NCBI GenBank assembly: GCA_900473795.1
Contig: UCMT01000014.1
Location: 1-64,000, forward strand
Length of the DNA stretch: 64,000 bases
Direction: 5' to 3'
DNA from: Hyphomicrobiales bacterium
GTDB taxonomy: Bacteria > Pseudomonadota > Alphaproteobacteria > Rhizobiales > Rhizobiaceae
The notes under the pieces are model-generated. The model had not been told where the DNA came from. It ran no database searches and was given only the letters and a program-made list of their open reading frames with translations. Positions 39,482 to 51,329 of this stretch are shown here, piece by piece (positions within the stretch are counted from its first letter, which is position 1; each line of letters starts with the position of its first letter). The position numbers and the translations under genes were made by a program.

Positions 39482-40324
39482 ATGGCATCGCGTGCATTGT
39501 GGAAAGGGCAGTTGCGCCTCTCCCTCGTTTCCATACCCGTCGAAGTCTTCAGCGCGACGAAGTCCGGCGCGCGTTTTTCCTTCCGACAAATCCACGAACC
39601 CTCCGGCAAGCCGGTCCACTACGACAAGGTCGTCGAGGGCGTCGGTCCTGTAGACATGGACGAAATCGTCAAAGGCTACGAGTATGAGAGCGGCAAATAT
39701 GTCCTGCTCGAGCCGGAGGAAATCGACGCCGTCAAACTCGAAACGAAAAAGACGCTGGAGCTCGTCCAGTTCGTCGATGCATGCGAGATTTCACCGATCT
39801 ACTACGACAAGCCCTATTACCTTGTGCCGGCCGACGACCTTGCCGAGGACGCCTATCGCGTCGTGCGCGATGCGCTAAGGTCTGCCGGCAAGGTCGGGCT
39901 CGGCCAGCTGACATTGCGCGGGCGCGAATACATTGCCGCCATAAAGCCATGCGGCGACGGTCTCCTGCTTGAAACGCTGCACTATGCGGATGAATTGCGA
40001 AAGGCTGACCCGATGTTCTCAGGCCTTTCCGGCAGGAAGGCCGACAAGGAACTGCTGGAGGTGGCAACCGCCCTCATCGACCGCAAGACCGCCCCTTTCG
40101 ATGCCACGACCTTCAAGGACAACTATTCAACCGCGCTGAAGGAGCTGGTCCAACGAAAGCTCAAGGGCAAGAAAACCAAGATCGAGGTCGATGAGGACGA
40201 GGACAAGGGCAAACGCGGCGACAATGTCGTCGACCTGATGTCGGCCCTGAAGAAGAGCCTCGAAGGTGGCGGCGGGAAATCACCAGCGCCGAAGAAAACC
40301 ACTGCCCGGAAAAAATCCGCTTGA
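39482..40324 (+). CDS. ku: Ku, DNA end-binding protein
   Basis: 280 residues. The bacterial Ku core spans about 5-235, starting RALWKGQLRLSLVSIPVEVF, with FSFRQIHEPSGKPVHYDKVV and the strand/loop region ELVQFVDACEISPIYYDKPY. The lysine-rich C-terminal tail (SPAPKKTTARKKSA) binds DNA in other Ku proteins. The homodimer rings double-strand ends and recruits LigD, encoded 9 nt downstream. Confidence 0.95.
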   Translation: MASRALWKGQLRLSLVSIPVEVFSATKSGARFSFRQIHEPSGKPVHYDKVVEGVGPVDMDEIVKGYEYESGKYVLLEPEEIDAVKLETKKTLELVQFVDACEISPIYYDKPYYLVPADDLAEDAYRVVRDALRSAGKVGLGQLTLRGREYIAAIKPCGDGLLLETLHYADELRKADPMFSGLSGRKADKELLEVATALIDRKTAPFDATTFKDNYSTALKELVQRKLKGKKTKIEVDEDEDKGKRGDNVVDLMSALKKSLEGGGGKSPAPKKTTARKKSA

Positions 40325-40333
40325 GGCACGGCC

Positions 40334-42967
40334 ATGGTTCAGCGGCACGATTCCCTCACCGAATACAATCGCAAACGCGACTTCACCAAGACATCGGAGC
40401 CGAAGGGCGCGGCGCGGCGGTCGAAGCCCGGCAAGCTTTTCCTGATCCAGAAACATGATGCGACCCGGCTGCACTACGATTTCCGGCTGGAATGGAAGGG
40501 TGTTCTGAAAAGCTGGGCCGTCACGCGCGGGCCGAGCCTCAACCCGGAAGACAAGCGCCTTGCCGTGCGCACCGAGGACCATCCGCTGGCCTATGGCGAT
40601 TTCGAGGGTACGATCCCGGAAAAGCAATATGGCGGCGGCACGGTGATGCTGTGGGATACCGGCTGGTGGGAGCCGGACAACGACCCGGATGAGGGGCTGA
40701 AGGAAGGCAAGCTGAAATTCCACACCCATGGCCAGCGCCTGCGCGGCGGCTGGACGCTGGTGCGCATGAAGCCGCGCGAGGGCGAGAAACGCGAAAACTG
40801 GCTGCTGATCAAGGAAGACGACGAGGACGCTGATCCCGACGGCGAAAGCCTGCTCATGGAAAACATGACCAGCGTCAAGACCGGCCGGTCGATGGAGGAA
40901 ATCGCTTCGGGCCGCGGCGAAAAGAGGGCCCATGTCTGGCAATCCAACAAGAGTGTCGCGGAAAACGTCAGGGCGGGTGCCGTCGCTGCGGACGAAAAGC
41001 CTTCTCGCCGAAGTGCGAACGTGCAGACGGGCAAAAGGCCCGCGTTTCAAAAACCCCAGCTCGCGACCCTCGTCTCCGAGGCCCCCGCAGGCGAGGACTG
41101 GCTGAACGAGGCGAAGTTCGACGGCTACCGGCTGATGGTCGCCGTCGGCAAGGGCGGCGTCACCTGCTACACCCGCACCGGCCTCGACTGGACGGAAAAA
41201 TTCCCCGACATCGTCGAGGGTTTTTCCGAGCTCGATTGCAAGAGTGCCCTGATCGATGGCGAAGCGGTCGCAGCTTCCGAAATAGGCTCGAAATTCTCCG
41301 CCTTGCAGAAGGCCCTGAAGACCGGTGGCGAAACGCGGTTCTATGCCTTCGATCTGCTGCATCTTGACGGCAAGGACCTGCGCAGGAAACCGCTGACCGA
41401 GCGCAAGCAGGCGCTGAAGATGCTGATCGAGACACTGGGTGGCAGCCGTCCGGTCCAGTACAGCGAGCATGTTCAGGGCAATGGCGAGAAGGTCTTCCAG
41501 GCAATGTGCAGGGCCGGACAGGAGGGGATCATCGCCAAGCGGGCGGATGCGCCCTACCGCGAGGGACGCGTCGGCAGCTGGCTGAAGATCAAATGCACCA
41601 AAAGACAGGAGTTCGTCATTGGCGGCTATTCGCCGTCCGACAAGCGCGGCCGCGCCTTCGCCTCGCTGTTGGTCGGCGCCTATCAGGGCGGCAAATTCGT
41701 CTATCAGGGCCGCGTCGGGACCGGTTTCGATGAGGACACGATGGAAGATCTGGCGTCCCGTTTTGCGAAGCTGAAAGTCGAGAAACCGGCCTTCGACGCC
41801 GTACCGCGCGAAATCGCGCGTGGCGCCGTCTGGCTTAAGCCAAAGCTTGTCGCCGAGATCGATTTCACCGAATTTACCGATGATGGCCATATCCGCCACG
41901 GGGCCTTCGAGGGCCTGCGCGAGGACAAGGAGGCAACTGCCGTGACACTGGAATCGGAAAAACCCGTCTCGACGAAATCGGTGCAGCGAAAGGCGGCCAA
42001 GCTCGAAGCGCCCTTGGACACAGCCGCCTCGGCGAGCAAGACGACGCCCAAGCGCAAGGAAACCGATGCCGAAGGCGATGTGCTCGGCATCCGCATTTCC
42101 CATGCCGACCGCCTGCTCTTTTCGAATCCGGACATCACCAAGATCGACCTTGCCCGCTACTACGGCGTCGTCTCCGACCGGATGCTGCCGTTTGCAGCCA
42201 GGCATCCGGCCTCGATCCTGCGGTGCCCGCAGGGGCCGGACCATCAATGTTTCTACCAGAAACATGCCGGCGAGGGATTTCCGGACGAAATCCACCAGGT
42301 GCCGATCGAAGAATCGGACGGCGACATCGCGAACTACCTCTACGTCGATGACGCGGAGGGCCTCATCGCTGCCGTGCAGATGGGCACGATCGAATTTCAC
42401 ATCTGGGGCTCGACCGTCGACAGGCTCGACGCGGCCGACCGTCTGGTCTTCGACCTCGATCCTGATCCAAGCGTGACATTTGAGACTGTGAAGACGGCGG
42501 CCGTCGATCTGCGCAAGACACTCGACGATATCGGCTTGAAGTCCGTTGCCATGGTCTCGGGCGGCAAGGGCATCCACGTCATCGTGCCGCTATCGCGCAA
42601 CGCCGCCTGGGAGGACGCCAAGGCCTTTGCCAAGGCGCTTTCCGTCAAGATCGCCGACCAAGACCCCGATCACTATATCGCCACCATGTCGAAGGCGAAG
42701 CGCAAGGGGCGCATCTTCATCGACTGGCTGCGCAATGAACGCGGCGCAACCGCCGTCGCTCCCTATTCCATCCGGGCCCGCAAAAGCGGTCCGGTCGCAA
42801 CACCTGTCACCTGGGAGGAACTGGCCGACCTCGACGCCGCCAACAGCTTCCATATTCCAGATATCCTCGGCAGGATCGAAGATGGAAATGATCCCTGGGC
42901 CGAAGCCAAGGATTGGAAGCAAAGCATCACCAAGGCAATGCTGAAAGCGGCGGGTGCCGAGAGCTGA
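40334..42967 (+). CDS. ligD: multifunctional DNA ligase D (NHEJ)
   Basis: 877 residues in the order phosphoesterase, ligase, polymerase. The 3'-phosphoesterase domain (about 35-165) has HDATRLHYDFRLEWKG with H41, H47 and D49, plus H83. The ATP-dependent ligase domain (about 240-535) has nucleophile K261 in EAKFDGYRL, with DGE, FAFD-like FYAFD and WLKIKC motifs. The primase-like polymerase domain (585-877) has FDLDPDP (D707, D709), SGGKGIHV (H748) and D797 in IDWLRN. All three active sites look intact. It trims, fills and seals broken ends held by Ku. Confidence 0.96.
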   Translation: MVQRHDSLTEYNRKRDFTKTSEPKGAARRSKPGKLFLIQKHDATRLHYDFRLEWKGVLKSWAVTRGPSLNPEDKRLAVRTEDHPLAYGDFEGTIPEKQYGGGTVMLWDTGWWEPDNDPDEGLKEGKLKFHTHGQRLRGGWTLVRMKPREGEKRENWLLIKEDDEDADPDGESLLMENMTSVKTGRSMEEIASGRGEKRAHVWQSNKSVAENVRAGAVAADEKPSRRSANVQTGKRPAFQKPQLATLVSEAPAGEDWLNEAKFDGYRLMVAVGKGGVTCYTRTGLDWTEKFPDIVEGFSELDCKSALIDGEAVAASEIGSKFSALQKALKTGGETRFYAFDLLHLDGKDLRRKPLTERKQALKMLIETLGGSRPVQYSEHVQGNGEKVFQAMCRAGQEGIIAKRADAPYREGRVGSWLKIKCTKRQEFVIGGYSPSDKRGRAFASLLVGAYQGGKFVYQGRVGTGFDEDTMEDLASRFAKLKVEKPAFDAVPREIARGAVWLKPKLVAEIDFTEFTDDGHIRHGAFEGLREDKEATAVTLESEKPVSTKSVQRKAAKLEAPLDTAASASKTTPKRKETDAEGDVLGIRISHADRLLFSNPDITKIDLARYYGVVSDRMLPFAARHPASILRCPQGPDHQCFYQKHAGEGFPDEIHQVPIEESDGDIANYLYVDDAEGLIAAVQMGTIEFHIWGSTVDRLDAADRLVFDLDPDPSVTFETVKTAAVDLRKTLDDIGLKSVAMVSGGKGIHVIVPLSRNAAWEDAKAFAKALSVKIADQDPDHYIATMSKAKRKGRIFIDWLRNERGATAVAPYSIRARKSGPVATPVTWEELADLDAANSFHIPDILGRIEDGNDPWAEAKDWKQSITKAMLKAAGAES

Positions 42968-46617: not shown

Positions 46618-47490
46618 TCAGCCGAGGTCTATGACGACGATTTCCGGTGGCGAACCGAGACGAAAGGGCAGGATCGACGTGCCGAGTCCGCCGGAAACGA
46701 TCAGGTTGCGGTTGTCCTCGACGATATGGCCATAGGCATAGCGGTTGCGGAAGCGTGACGGGACGATGGGAGAATAGCCAAACATACGGATTTGTCCGCC
46801 ATGCGTGTGCCCTGAAAGGGTCAGTGATACGCGATTCGGCACCGTCGGAAAAACATCCGGCTCATGCGCCATCAGGATAACGGGCGCCTCGCCGATGATC
46901 TGCGCCATCGTTGCGGGCAGGTCATCCAGCCCCGGCCACGGCCCAATCTGGTCCGCAAGACCTGCGAGCCAGAACGAAAGGCCATCCTTCTCGAAACACA
47001 CCGCGCGATTGTCGTAGACCGCAACGTTGATCGATGAAAGCGCGCCGTGAACAAGTGTCGGTCCCTTTCCAGCAGCCATCGCCCCCGGATCGTCCAGCCA
47101 GTCATGATTGCCCAGCACCGCGTGGACGCCGAGCGGTGCCGACAGACGGGCGAGCTCGCGGGCCCAATCCTCCGGCGCGACCTGGCCGGCGCTTAATCGC
47201 ATGCCGGACAAAAAATCCCCCAGCAGCAGGATCATGTCGCCACCAAGACCGTTGGCCTGCTCACAGATCTCGCCGATCCGCCGTGGCGACATCCAGGGTG
47301 TGCAGGCATGAATGTCTGCAAGCACGACCAGCCTCAATTTCAATCCGGCCGGCCATTTGTTCGGGACGAGACTATATCGCGTTACGCGCGGCTGCCGGGC
47401 CGGCTCTATCCCGATCACATAGGCGCCGGTCGCGATGCCACTCAGCAGCATGCTCGCGAATGCTCCCAGAAAGCCGCGCCTGCTGATCAC
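46618..47490 (-). CDS. Tat-type metallophosphoesterase
   Basis: 290 residues. The N terminus SRRGFLGAFASMLLSG is a twin-arginine signal or anchor. The calcineurin-like metal motifs are in order: LADIHACTP, LLGDFL, LGNHDW, LMAHEPD and LSGHTHGG. This YkuE-like family acts outside the cytoplasm on phospholipid or UDP-lipid substrates; the substrate here is unknown. It starts with GTG at 47490 directly after the ruvB stop (TGAGTG), so it is translationally coupled to ruvB. Confidence 0.9.
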   Translation of the reverse strand: MISRRGFLGAFASMLLSGIATGAYVIGIEPARQPRVTRYSLVPNKWPAGLKLRLVVLADIHACTPWMSPRRIGEICEQANGLGGDMILLLGDFLSGMRLSAGQVAPEDWARELARLSAPLGVHAVLGNHDWLDDPGAMAAGKGPTLVHGALSSINVAVYDNRAVCFEKDGLSFWLAGLADQIGPWPGLDDLPATMAQIIGEAPVILMAHEPDVFPTVPNRVSLTLSGHTHGGQIRMFGYSPIVPSRFRNRYAYGHIVEDNRNLIVSGGLGTSILPFRLGSPPEIVVIDLG

Positions 47491-48531
47491 TCAATCGTCC
47501 TCTTGGAACAGGCGGAACTGGGTGGCTTCCAGATCCTTCGGCACCTGCAATCCAAGATGTTTCCATGCATTTGCGGTCAAAACACGTCCGCGCGGCGTGC
47601 GCTGGATAAAACCCTGCTGGATCATATAGGGCTCGATGATGTCCTCGATCGCATCCCGCGGCTCCGAAAGCCCGGCCGCGATCGTTTCGATGCCGACCGG
47701 GCCACCGCCGAAATTGAGCGCGATCATTGTGAGATAGCGCTTGTCGAGCTGGTCGAGGCCCATATTGTCGACCAGCAACCGCGTCAAAGCCTCGTCGGCG
47801 ATCTGCTTGGTCACCGCTTCGGCCTTTGCCACCTCGGCGAAATCACGCACCCGGCGCAACAGCCTGCCGGCAATGCGCGGCGTGCCACGCGAGCGGCGGG
47901 CGATCTCGCGGGCGCCGTCGTCGGTGATGCCAAGCCCCATCAGCCTGGCGCCGCGCCGAACGATCAGTTCCAGTTCCTCGACCGTATAGAAACTGAGCCG
48001 CACGGGAATGCCGAAACGGTCGCGCAACGGCGTCGTCAGCAGGCCGAGCCGCGTAGTGGCGGCAACCAGGGTGAATTTCGACAGGTCGATCTTCACCGAG
48101 CGCGCCGCCGGTCCTTCGCCGATAATCAGGTCGAGCTGAAAGTCCTCCATCGCCGGATAGAGGATCTCCTCGACCGCCGGGTTGAGCCGGTGGATTTCGT
48201 CGATGAACAGCACGTCGCGGTCTTCGAGATTGGTCAGGAGCGCCGCAAGGTCTCCCGCCTTGGCAATCACGGGACCAGAGGTCGAACGGAAATTGACCCC
48301 CAGTTCCTTGGCCATGATCTGCGCCAGCGTCGTCTTGCCGAGGCCGGGCGGGCCGACGAACAGCACGTGGTCCAGCGCCTCGCCGCGGTTCTTCGCCGCC
48401 TCGATGAACACCTTCAGATTGGCGCGCGCCTCCGCTTGGCCGGTAAACTCGTCCAGCGATTGCGGCCGCAGCGTCGTATCGAGGTCCTCGCCCCGCTTCT
48501 CCGGTGTGATCAAACGTGCGGCATCGGTCAT
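47491..48531 (-). CDS. ruvB: Holliday junction helicase RuvB
   Basis: 346 residues, standard length. Walker A is GPPGLGKTT and Walker [10 protein letters not shown]. Sensor and arginine-finger regions include [15 protein letters not shown], and the C-terminal winged helix contains [15 protein letters not shown]. It drives branch migration with RuvA. Its ATG (48531) overlaps the vapC-like stop as ATGA, so its translation is coupled to the toxin gene rather than to ruvA. A start at 48597 would overlap the toxin frame further and is not the family start. Confidence 0.96.
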
Positions 48532-48932
48532 GCGAGGAGTTCCATTCCGGGGACTTTGCGTGCGGCCTTCATATCGAAGGTCTTGGTGGAGTGGCAACCT
48601 TCCTCAAACGAGCGGCAGGCAATCACGGCATCTGCAAAATCTGCATTGTTTTTTTCGACAAGCCGAAGAGCCTTTACGACAAGCGTGTGGTTCTCGACGA
48701 TGAGCCCGCGCGTGTGAAGCAGCCTGTCAATGGCAAACGTAACATCTTTCCTAGTGTACCCGTATTGCGACCGAAGGGCCCAATCAAGCTCCAGCAATCC
48801 GATAAGCGTGACAAAAGCCGAATAGTCCCGTCCAAGACCTTCTCCGAACTTGAGTGCCGCTGCCCGCTGTACCGGATCGTCATCAATGAAAAGCCGTATC
48901 ACGATATTCGTATCGAGCCCGAACACCATCAT
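48528..48932 (-). CDS. vapC: PIN-domain toxin (VapC-like)
   Basis: 134 residues. The PIN fold acidic residues are visible: D7 (GLDTN), E48 (LLELDW), D98 ([10 protein letters not shown]) and D120 (TFDMKA). These chelate Mg/Mn for RNA cleavage in VapC toxins. Its ATG overlaps the antitoxin stop as ATGA and its own stop overlaps the ruvB start as ATGA. All four acidic residues are present, so it is probably active. Target RNA unknown; many VapC enzymes cut initiator tRNA or the sarcin-ricin loop. Confidence 0.9.
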
Positions 48933-49213
48933 GCGGCGGCGTCCGCTTCATGGTCGTCTTGCGTATCGACTGCATTCTCGCCGCCACCCTTCAAGACTGC
49001 AGCGTCGATTTCCTCCAGCGTTGCGCGTCCCTTGGGGGGCTTTCCCAGCAGACCGGCAAGATCATTGAAATCGATATTTTTTGGGGTAAGGACGACCTCG
49101 CCGTCAACGACGGAATAGATCAACTGATCTCCGGGTCGGAGATTCAAAGCCTCCCTCATCTCCTTCGGGATGGTCACCTGGCCCTTCGGCGAAAGCGTAA
49201 CTTCCCACCACAT
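48929..49213 (-). CDS. vapB: AbrB/MazE-type antitoxin (VapB-like)
   Basis: 94 residues. The SpoVT/AbrB swapped-hairpin DNA-binding domain is at 1-45 (VTLSPKGQVTIPKEMREALN, RPGDQLIY, DGEVVLTPK). It is followed by an acidic C-terminal arm (LAGLLGKPPKGRATLEEIDA) that would wrap the toxin. GGAAGGA precedes ATG 49213. Such antitoxins repress their own promoter, so ruvB expression may fall under antitoxin control (inference). Confidence 0.9.
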   Translation of the reverse strand: MWWEVTLSPKGQVTIPKEMREALNLRPGDQLIYSVVDGEVVLTPKNIDFNDLAGLLGKPPKGRATLEEIDAAVLKGGGENAVDTQDDHEADAAA

Positions 49214-49286
49214 ACCGCAATCCTTCCAACGAAAATCGTTTTGGCGGAAATTCTACCAAATCTCTGTCGATCTCACAAACGACCAA

Positions 49287-49904
49287 TCATCGCGCCAGTT
49301 CCTTCAGCCCCAGCCGGATCAGCTTGGCGCTGTCAGCGCCCTCGCCGCCATTCTTCAATGCCGCGGCTACCGCGTTTGCCGCCTGATCGCGTGAATAGCC
49401 GAGATTGCTGAGCGCCGAGACCGCATCGGCCACAGGAGCGGAAGCAACCCCTTCACCAAGTTCCTGCTTCAGACCGATATTGGCCGCCGCCTCGCCGGCA
49501 AAGGCGGGTGCCTTGTTCTTCAGTTCGGTCACGATGCGCACCGCGACCTTCGGGCCGACACCCGGCGCCCGCGACACGGACGTCTTGTCCTGCAGCGCGA
49601 TCGCATTCGCCAGTTCGCCGGGCGTCAGAACCGAGAGCACCGCCAGCGCCACCTTGGAGCCGACACCCTGAACGCTCTGTAGGAGCCGGAACCACTCCCG
49701 CTCCAGCGCCGTCAGGAAGCCGAACAGCCGCAGCTGGTCCTCGCGCACATAGGTTTCGATGAACAGAATGGCGGCCTCGCCCGGAGAGCCGAGCTTCGAC
49801 AATGTGCGCGACGAGCAATGGGCGACATAGCCGACGCCGTGTACGTCGAGAACCACGTGGTCGTCGCCGATCTCGTCGATCGTTCCCTTGAGTTTGCCGA
49901 TCAT
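49287..49904 (-). CDS. ruvA: Holliday junction DNA helicase subunit RuvA
   Basis: 205 residues. The N-terminal OB domain begins [20 protein letters not shown]. The two HhH motifs follow ([19 protein letters not shown] and [17 protein letters not shown]). The C-terminal RuvB-binding domain ends [20 protein letters not shown]. It recognises four-way junctions and recruits RuvB. It is flanked on both sides by toxin-antitoxin pairs: 13 nt from the upstream toxin stop and 73 nt from the downstream antitoxin start. Confidence 0.96.
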
Positions 49905-49917
49905 GGCGCAACGTCCT

Positions 49918-50331
49918 TCATGGGTGAGTTTCCGGCGTGATCAGTTCGACGGAAGGGAAATAGGCCCGATAGCCTTTCGGATCGCGGGTCAAAATGGTGT
50001 GGCCACGAATGGCCGCATGGGCACCGATGAGAAAATCGGGTAGCACCCGTTCGCGCCCTCCTCCGGCTTGCCTGTATCGACGAAAAGCCACTCCGGCCGC
50101 AAACGCCGCAGTCCAAGGGAGGTTTTCCCGGCTGAATTCGGTTTCCGGTAAGAAGCTATCCACCTCTTCCGTTCGTTGATAACGCACCGAAAATTCCGAG
50201 TAGATGACCGGATTGATGACCACGGCACCACGTTTTGCGGCTGCGATAATCTGTGTTTTCGACCACCCCCACCAAGTCGGATCGCGAACAGCGATATCGA
50301 CCAGAATATTCGTATCCACCAAAGTCGCCAT
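49918..50331 (-). CDS. PIN-domain toxin, second VapC-like
   Basis: 137 residues. PIN acidic residues D6 (LVDTNILVD), E46 (YSEFSVRY), D99 (LPDFLIGAH) and D117 (TRDPKGY) are present, and [17 protein letters not shown] is a typical C-terminal motif of the group. It starts 4 nt after its antitoxin stop and ends 13 nt before ruvA. It is only distantly similar to the other PIN toxin nearby, so the two pairs probably arrived separately. Confidence 0.9.
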
Positions 50332-50335
50332 GAGG

Positions 50336-50587
50336 TCAGCGGTCCCGCGTCATTTCCATGAGCCGGTTCGCATCGATCTCTTGATCGCCCGTTCCTTCCA
50401 GCCGTTGCAATGTTACAAGAAATCGCTCGAGGCGAACGCGGTCTTCCTGCTCCTGCCGGCCGTCTTTGGGAACAATGGTCAACTTACCGCCCTCCATTGA
50501 AAAAAGGACTTCGCTATTGGGCGCTATACCCGCCAGCTCGCGCAAGTCTCGCGGAATGGTAACCTGACCTTTTGAAGTGACGCGCAT
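50336..50587 (-). CDS. AbrB-type antitoxin, second pair
   Basis: 83 residues, AbrB/SpoVT domain MRVTSKGQVTIPRDLRELAG then VLFSMEGGKLTIVPK. The charged helical tail (EDRVRLERFLVTLQRLEGTG) is presumably for toxin binding. AAGGAG precedes ATG 50587. It lies 57 nt after the ruvC stop and is the first gene of the second toxin-antitoxin pair, inserted between ruvC and ruvA. Confidence 0.9.
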   Translation of the reverse strand: MRVTSKGQVTIPRDLRELAGIAPNSEVLFSMEGGKLTIVPKDGRQEQEDRVRLERFLVTLQRLEGTGDQEIDANRLMEMTRDR

Positions 50588-50644
50588 GAACTTGCTCCTT
50601 CAAAGTAGGAAATATCCTTACGAATGGAACAAGTCAAGAACAAA

Positions 50645-51157
50645 TCAGCCCGCCAGTGCCGCCAGCCGCATCCGGGCCGCACCGCGATTGTGCGCATGGC
50701 AGATGGCAATCGCCAGCGCATCGGCCGCGTCATTGCCCTTGAATTCGGCCTTCGGCATCAGGATTTTCAGCATCATGTGAATCTGCTGCTTCTCGCCGTG
50801 ACCGACGCCAATTACCGCCTTCTTGACTGCATTCGGCGCATATTCGGAGACCTGCAAGCCGGCCCGCGCCGGTACCAGCATGGCGATGCCGCGCGCTTGT
50901 CCGAGTTTCAGCGTCGCCACCGCATCCTTGTTGACGAAGGTCTGCTCGACGGCCGCCTCGTCCGGCTTGTGGCTGTGGATCACCTCCGCCAATCCGTCAT
51001 GCAGCTGGCAAAGGCGCGAGGCAAGGTCCATGTCGCCATCGGAGATGACGGTGCCGGAAGCAACGAAGCGCAAGGAGTTGCCGAGCGTGTCGATGATGCC
51101 CCAGCCTGTGCGGCGAAGTCCCGGATCGATGCCGATGATGCGAATCGTATTTTGCAT
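50645..51157 (-). CDS. ruvC: Holliday junction resolvase RuvC
   Basis: 170 residues. The RNase H-like fold has D11 in [12 protein letters not shown], the glutamate in AAVEQTFVN and the acidic pair in [15 protein letters not shown]. It cuts four-way junctions symmetrically after RuvAB branch migration. AGGA precedes ATG 51157. The YebC gene, normally just upstream, is separated by an opposite-strand oxidoreductase gene. Confidence 0.96.
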
Positions 51158-51329
51158 GCTGAAATCCTATTCCCGATAGTGGGACGCTGCCAGCGAAATG
51201 TGAACAAAACAAAAACATCCCCATGATTGAGCAGGAACTGATCTGCACTCTCCCTCTCCGGCGGGCTTGGATTTACGAAATTCGATCTTACATAGGCTTC
51301 TATCAAAATCGTTGATCGAAGGCTTTATC

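Follow-up and report, generated by a model that had tools for sequence, protein, structure and literature searches.

Toxin-antitoxin pairs interrupt the ruvCAB operon, which encodes the machinery for DNA-junction repair, at two fixed positions in the DNA of this soil bacterium and of many relatives. On the minus strand, the window (the whole 64,000-nucleotide stretch that was analyzed) carries ruvC, antitoxin 1, toxin 1, ruvA, antitoxin 2, toxin 2, ruvB and a metallophosphoesterase gene, in that order. It contains two AbrB/PIN (VapBC-type) pairs, one per ruv gap: pair 1 between ruvC and ruvA, and pair 2 between ruvA and ruvB. Pfam assigns the antitoxins to MazE/AbrB and the toxins to PIN; the ruv genes were identified with NCBIfam equivalog models. 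A preliminary description of this DNA recorded pair 2 and its overlaps correctly; it missed the other AbrB/PIN pair, pair 1 (50587-49918), and the LexA-type box at 50641-50627. The features of the locus, all on the minus strand, are as follows.

51202 to 51216, minus strand: one-mismatch LexA-type box GTTTTTGTTTTGTTC, 59 bases before ruvC, read from the sequence
50645 to 51157, minus strand: ruvC (PF02075, 3e-45; TIGR00228, 1e-40)
50627 to 50641, minus strand: LexA-type box GTTCTTGACTTGTTC with a TTGACT -35-like hexamer, in the pair 1 leader (exact GTTCN7GTTC)
50605 to 50621, minus strand: palindrome GTAAGGATATTTCCTAC, candidate antitoxin 1 operator, in the pair 1 leader
50336 to 50587, minus strand: antitoxin 1, AbrB/MazE type, 83 aa (PF04014, 4e-11)
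49918 to 50331, minus strand: toxin 1, PIN domain, 137 aa, C terminus ETHP (PF01850, 3e-8; alignment A2)
49287 to 49904, minus strand: ruvA (TIGR00084, 1e-57)
49278 to 49250, minus strand: promoter-like TTGTGA-17-TAGAAT, candidate pair 2 promoter (promoter scan)
49240 to 49260, minus strand: palindrome TTTGGTAGAATTTCCGCCAAA, candidate pair 2 operator, overlapping the promoter-like site, read from the sequence
48929 to 49213, minus strand: antitoxin 2, AbrB/MazE type (MazE_antitoxin), 94 aa (PF04014, 2e-13)
48528 to 48932, minus strand: toxin 2, PIN domain, 134 aa, C terminus MELLA (PF01850, 7e-7; alignment A1)
48528 to 48545, minus strand: toxin 2 end, ATG GAA CTC CTC GCA TGA, which includes the ruvB start codon, read from the sequence
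47491 to 48531, minus strand: ruvB (NF000868, 5e-155)
46618 to 47490, minus strand: metallophosphoesterase gene, GTG start (PF00149, 4e-10)

We regard the anatomy of the locus and its conservation as solid. Elsewhere in the window (39482-42967, plus strand), two adjacent genes encode a Ku-like and a LigD-type ligase-like protein, which from their translations we take to be an end-joining pair.

Both toxins score above the PF01850 cut-off, and the family was detected at E values up to 0.01 in 36/36 and 36/37 of the aligned relatives. D7, N9 and E48 are invariant in the toxin 2 alignment (36 sequences), with D101 and D120 conserved in at least 90%; in the toxin 1 alignment (37 sequences), D6, E46, D99 and D117 are invariant. 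We assume that the conserved acidic residues of both proteins are catalytic. Directly upstream of each toxin lies a small gene for a MazE/AbrB-domain antitoxin, the arrangement by which VapBC modules are recognized. Profile comparison matched toxin 1 to VapC15 and to another VapC; for the toxin 2 profile (A1), the only match among PDB sequences up to E 0.001 was PcrIIC1 (8wmm, 2e-7), which is not named as a VapC. Both toxins are predicted to act as VapC-type RNases and would slow growth if the supply of antitoxin fell.

PIN folds include flap nucleases, and the constant company of recombination genes could suggest that these PIN proteins process DNA together with RuvABC instead of acting as toxins. 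We consider this very improbable. Each stands behind an AbrB-type antitoxin and usually has a palindrome in its leader, like ordinary VapBC modules; eight of the 14 plasmid relatives fetched are annotated VapC toxins located away from ruv (the other six have no toxin annotation); and the Ruv genes stand alone in many relatives.

The distribution of the pairs was read from 106 ruv loci in 54 genera, comprising every genome of the genus (26) and 80 of 161 family genomes. These 80 were picked by hand and weighted toward nearer RuvB proteins, so the occupancy rates are not estimates for the family. Gap 1 was judged in 104 loci and gap 2 in 105 (L110 is without ruvC, and L159 without ruvC and ruvA, in the stretch read). 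A pair occupies the ruvC/ruvA gap in 52/104 loci and the ruvA/ruvB gap in 42/105, the latter count including a broken copy in L087. Within the genus, gap 1 is occupied in 23/26 loci and gap 2 in 16/26; the corresponding numbers for the family sample of 80 are 29 and 26. Pairs occur at gap 1 in 26 of the 54 genera, at gap 2 in 23 and at either gap in 33. Each gap is occupied by its own toxin type in the family loci. Four loci (L133, L136, L152 and L158) hold open frames of 138-178 aa in their ruv gaps that are unmatched by toxin or antitoxin profiles, suggesting that the gaps may take other cargo.

The A1 profile, run against 61 family genomes, yielded 20 matches with E < 1e-30, all lying at most 260 bases before ruvB and one with an internal stop; 11 came from loci in the profile and nine did not. 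The next match (6e-28) is located elsewhere, and the broken L087 copy scored 3e-16. A contig scan with the single toxin 2 protein, which reaches close relatives only, returned 12 named near loci from Neorhizobium, Agrobacterium, Rhizobium and three Rhizobiales bacterium records. Outside the family the pairs are rare: in the rest of the order, with 11 genomes left out of the count, a pair was present in 2/48 loci read at gap 1 and 1/48 at gap 2, and two more loci had just an antitoxin-like stretch; in the class outside the order it was present in 0/29 loci read (of 52 with a ruvB match).

Closely related loci can carry very different toxins. The clearest case is L064 and L065, whose DNA is 93.5% identical in ruvC, 97.1% in ruvA and 95.7% in ruvB, with 34% identity in toxin 2 and 55% in toxin 1. 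For the window and L062, the values are 93.1%, 94.1% and 93.6% for ruvC, ruvA and ruvB, and 40% and 46% for toxin 2 and toxin 1. At gap 2 within the genus, toxin 2 identity is below 50% in 71 of 120 genome pairs, for which mean ruvA and ruvB identities are 84.5% and 86.8%; in the 48 pairs with toxin 2 at 60% or above these are 84.2% and 87.3%, and one pair falls between. Gap 1 behaves similarly, with toxin 1 below 60% in 157/231 pairs (ruvC 84.9%, ruvA 85.5%) and above it in 74 (ruvC 85.1%, ruvA 85.3%), L070 being left out of this comparison. Toxin identity as low as 34% between flanking ruvA and ruvB DNA that is more than 95% identical indicates that alleles have been swapped in place.

Divergent alleles swapped at fixed gaps are typical of immune loci, and one could propose an anti-phage, arms-race locus that SOS induction arms upon phage DNA damage. 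Allele replacement with ruvA and ruvB more than 95% identical would fit this proposal, as would the tandem modules, two in each case, in gap 1 of L085 and gap 2 of L113. We nevertheless judge it quite unlikely, since none of the four pair proteins matched a known defense family in PADLOC up to E 0.01, and a single search of viral contigs using toxin 2, of close-relative reach only, found no match.

The 103 loci placed on a Ruv protein tree comprise 30 with both pairs, 21 with the first only, 11 with the second only and 41 with neither, and require at least 19 occupancy changes at gap 1 and at least 28 at gap 2. The L104 scar retains the antitoxin start and the toxin 2 end around a deletion, L134 retains the antitoxin start and the toxin 1 end around a deletion along with a box variant, and L095, L102 and L156 have only toxin-like last codons before ruvB. 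This patchy presence, with 41/103 loci holding neither pair, and the decayed copies in L087, L104 and L134 are what would be expected of hitchhikers without a ruv function. On that account, a VapBC module landed long ago in a non-lethal gap and spread by recombination through the flanks, with the overlap and the box serving to limit damage to the host. A review takes the hitchhiker view of relA-mazEF and dinB-yafNO in the portion available to us (PMC7167474). We treat hitchhiking as a serious rival, quite possible if just short of probable.

Several observations pull the other way. The toxin types are gap specific, and in a toxin 2 tree of 81 rows (52 from gap 2, 29 non-ruv) there are only two label changes, against a shuffled mean of 24. 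On this basis we reject the idea that gap 2 captured unrelated toxins again and again. The gap-2 rows come close to a single group, with a main group of 46 (support 85) and six rows outside it; many forks of the tree are unresolved and the deep ones are weakly supported, and a single origin of the gap-2 toxins is no more than possible. The pattern fits old residents exchanged through conserved flanks. Moreover, dN/dS across 11 chosen pairs is 0.03-0.25 for the toxin and 0.04-0.15 for the antitoxin, values that place both under purifying selection, which also counts against passengers.

A further feature that speaks against simple hitchhiking is the LexA-type box, carried only by the ruv-resident pair 1. 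The published alphaproteobacterial LexA site is GTTCN7GTTC, as given in the accessible parts of two papers (PMC3323433, PMC9578287), and the pair 1 leader holds an exact copy at 50641-50627, the kind of promoter site that marks members of the SOS regulon. In 52/52 loci that have pair 1, an exact GTTCN7GTTC follows ruvC (overlapping its end in L059), and 47/52 loci without pair 1 are also without the box. The five exceptions have it after ruvC (L111, L134, L148 and L156) or further on (L109); L134 is a clear scar. Among named loci, the box is present in 10/10 with pair 1 and 0/4 without, although L161, counted among the ten, duplicates genus locus L080, and further named loci may duplicate unnamed ones. 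It precedes each of the two gap-1 modules in the tandem locus L085. The 15-mer of the window occurs once per genome in 21/26 genus genomes, always on the ruvB contig, upstream of ruvB and on the same strand; the backward control pattern had no match in the 26 genus genomes. Upstream of modules elsewhere, the box was found in 0/36 cases (both strands). About two matches per 64 kb are expected by chance on both strands. GTTCN7GTTC also precedes lexA in this genome, by about 50 bases, and the recA profile match, by about 170 bases, each time on the strand opposite to the gene. Taken together, gap specificity, the box and purifying selection point to adaptation of the pairs to their site, not to a benefit to the cell.

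From these matches we infer that LexA binds the pair 1 box; its inner seven bases are near-invariant, so a factor other than LexA may be involved. Our first expectation, that the box is an antitoxin operator, became less likely because plasmid relatives have the palindrome without the box. A LexA site is not new to this operon, as alphaproteobacterial ruvCAB promoters have already been stated to hold putative ones in the part of PMC3323433 at hand. Within 160 bases before ruvC, the best GTTCN7GTTC match departs from the pattern at exactly one base in 91/104 loci, mostly near -60, versus 4/104 when the same stretches are read backward. The new point is a second box, belonging to toxin-antitoxin pair 1, beside those known sites. 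Since ruvC already has a one-mismatch box of its own, the contribution of pair 1 may be small. In the order-level modules L182 and L185, the only box carries one mismatch. Between ruvC and ruvA, two other order-level loci, L198 and L200, combine the same 15-base box with an antitoxin-like stretch and gave no toxin hit.

Palindromes accompany both pairs. One of the GTAAGGATATTTCCTAC or GTAATAC/GTATTAC type lies downstream of the box in 45/52 pair 1 leaders, and a CTTAC..GTAAG-type palindrome is present in 24/42 pair 2 leaders; the window's own pair 2 palindrome is not above shuffles. The promoter scan of 4 kb reported a single promoter-like site, TTGTGA-17-TAGAAT, where shuffles give 1.6, and its score alone is not above shuffles. 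We describe the putative pair 2 promoter and palindrome as no more than suggestive. The candidate pair 1 promoter has a poor -10 and was unreported by the promoter scan. With palindromes and promoter-like or -35-like sites before the pairs, the VapB autoregulation proposed in the preliminary description is plausible.

The two pairs meet the following ruv gene differently. In the window, antitoxin 1 ends four bases before toxin 1, and the toxin 1 stop lies 13 bases before ruvA. Across 52 loci, the gap-1 toxin and ruvA are separated by 12-13 bases in 34, overlap as ATGA in seven and have another arrangement in 11. The gap-1 toxins end in [TS][HY][PS] in 55/58 cases, with the truncated L292 left out, versus 0/5 relatives elsewhere.

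At pair 2 the genes overlap. The antitoxin 2 stop and toxin 2 start share an ATGA at 48932-48929 on the minus strand, the toxin 2 stop and ruvB start (ATG, 48531-48529) share another at 48531-48528, and ruvB (TGA, 47493-47491) runs directly into the GTG-start gene as TGAGTG, each exactly as first described. Conservation of the ruvB overlap in relatives had been proposed as a check, and it held: an NTGA is common to the toxin 2 stop and ruvB start in 38/42 occupied loci, counting the broken copy in L087, so with the family sample we reject an overlap of chance or purely local origin. Of the other four, L129 by eye also has a GTGA, and its RuvB is shorter by two residues at the N terminus; L149 has one common base, and L150 and L153 have no overlap. 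A ribosome-site-like GGA (within GGAA) falls in the last toxin 2 codons, eight bases before the ruvB start. The C-terminal motif [MVL]E[LRF][LF] is found in 52/52 gap-2 toxin rows, 51 of them distinct (one locus appears twice, as L157 and L256), versus 0/29 non-ruv relatives. In an AlphaFold2 model of toxin 2 (mean pLDDT 96.4) the conserved C-terminal residues form the last strand, and the toxin end may thus be kept for a protein reason.

The original interpretation of this overlap was that RuvB production depends on toxin translation and VapB autoregulation. The conserved four-base overlap and the palindromes and promoter-like site before pair 2 are in its favor, and mutant data from R. leguminosarum 3841 lend it some support. 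In that strain, adjacency of vapBC to ruvAB is already in print, and the sections of the report available to us place insertions in vapC, ruvA and ruvB in the same class, with vapB classed apart, and credit the toxin pair (PMC11406972). The pair concerned is, however, pair 1, and polarity on ruvAB would, in our view, explain the vapC result as well; the wording "polar effect" is absent from PMC11406972. Against dependence, 63/105 family loci have no pair in the ruvA/ruvB gap, the broken toxin 2 of L087 adjoins an intact ruvB start, and the scars in L095, L102, L104 and L156 hold only the last toxin codons. The predicted ribosome-site energy at ruvB, calculated from 16S-tail pairing, is the same in 42 occupied and 64 other loci (mean -4.1 in both), so independent initiation is equally likely with and without the pair, and ribosome-site strength failed as proof of coupling. 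The toxin is thus dispensable for ruvB, whereas its end tends to persist. What survives of the original interpretation is the conserved overlap, the start signals within the toxin end and the plausibility of autoregulation; dependence of RuvB on the toxin is unlikely. The pair 1 box appears to be the stronger regulatory link.

Our preferred reading, in which we place moderate confidence, is that these are gap-specific, SOS-wired VapBC modules embedded in the ruvCAB operon of a Neorhizobium-type bacterium. Upon DNA damage, LexA would be cleaved and a promoter before pair 1 would fire, giving a transcript that spans vapB1-vapC1-ruvA-vapB2-vapC2-ruvB. VapBC complexes would repress their own promoters through the palindromes, and ribosomes finishing toxin 2 could reinitiate at ruvB, supplementing direct initiation from the GGA site. 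In this way the pairs would be carried along by the SOS expression of RuvAB and would also contribute to driving it. A module could be lost safely only if the following gene retained its start signals. The insertion classes of R. leguminosarum 3841, with vapC grouped with ruvA and ruvB, also favor this reading. We consider it likely that RuvAB is controlled together with the pairs. We find doubtful the more ambitious extension of this reading to a family-wide DNA-damage checkpoint, in which the LexA-controlled pair and the ruvB-coupled pair would tie growth arrest to RuvABC supply, with alleles kept diverse by selection and swapped through the ruv flanks.

Whether chromosomal toxin-antitoxin pairs are passengers or are wired into the cell is a long-standing dispute. 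A single core operon that holds them at two fixed places in many genera provides repeated natural cases of gain, swapping, decay and loss, together with a DNA-damage box that accompanies the resident pair. With occupied, empty and scarred relatives at hand, harmless soil bacteria offer a direct test of the dispute. There is also a practical consequence: in rhizobia, a toxin may contribute to the phenotype of ruvAB mutants, just as RuvAB may contribute to that of vapC mutants.

We found no paper in the open-access literature searched on the two-gap pattern, the ruvB overlap or the pair 1 box, and the searched text of a broad toxin-antitoxin survey (PMC2701414) has no mention of ruv. Among the closest described systems is RL3987-RL3988 of R. 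leguminosarum 3841, likewise an AbrB/PIN pair directly upstream of ruvA; it concerns one gap only, and the available sections discuss no LexA-type box, second gap, ruv overlap or spread to other genera (PMC11406972). In some Vibrionaceae, ruvCAB is also split by inserted genes, and others have separate LexA sites for ruvC and ruvAB, but the inserted genes are not called toxin-antitoxin in the part of the paper at hand (PMC3323433). E. coli ccd(O157), between folA and apaH, is similarly a chromosomal pair in a fixed core-gene gap; that gap takes other elements as well, and the portion available makes no mention of the pair overlapping the start of the following gene (PMC7167474). Caulobacter higBA is an SOS-regulated type II pair, as pair 1 may be, in an alphaproteobacterium with a GTTCN7GTTC LexA site, but its toxin belongs to another family and the excerpt gives no placement in a repair operon (PMC9578287). 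Finally, in E. coli dinB-yafNO, a patchily distributed, SOS-regulated type II pair within a DNA-damage operon is co-transcribed with a LexA-controlled repair gene; according to the parts of two papers available to us, yafNO sits behind the repair gene and under its LexA control (PMC7167474, PMC9578287). Here, by comparison, there are two pairs, and pair 1 stands before ruvA with a LexA-type box of its own.
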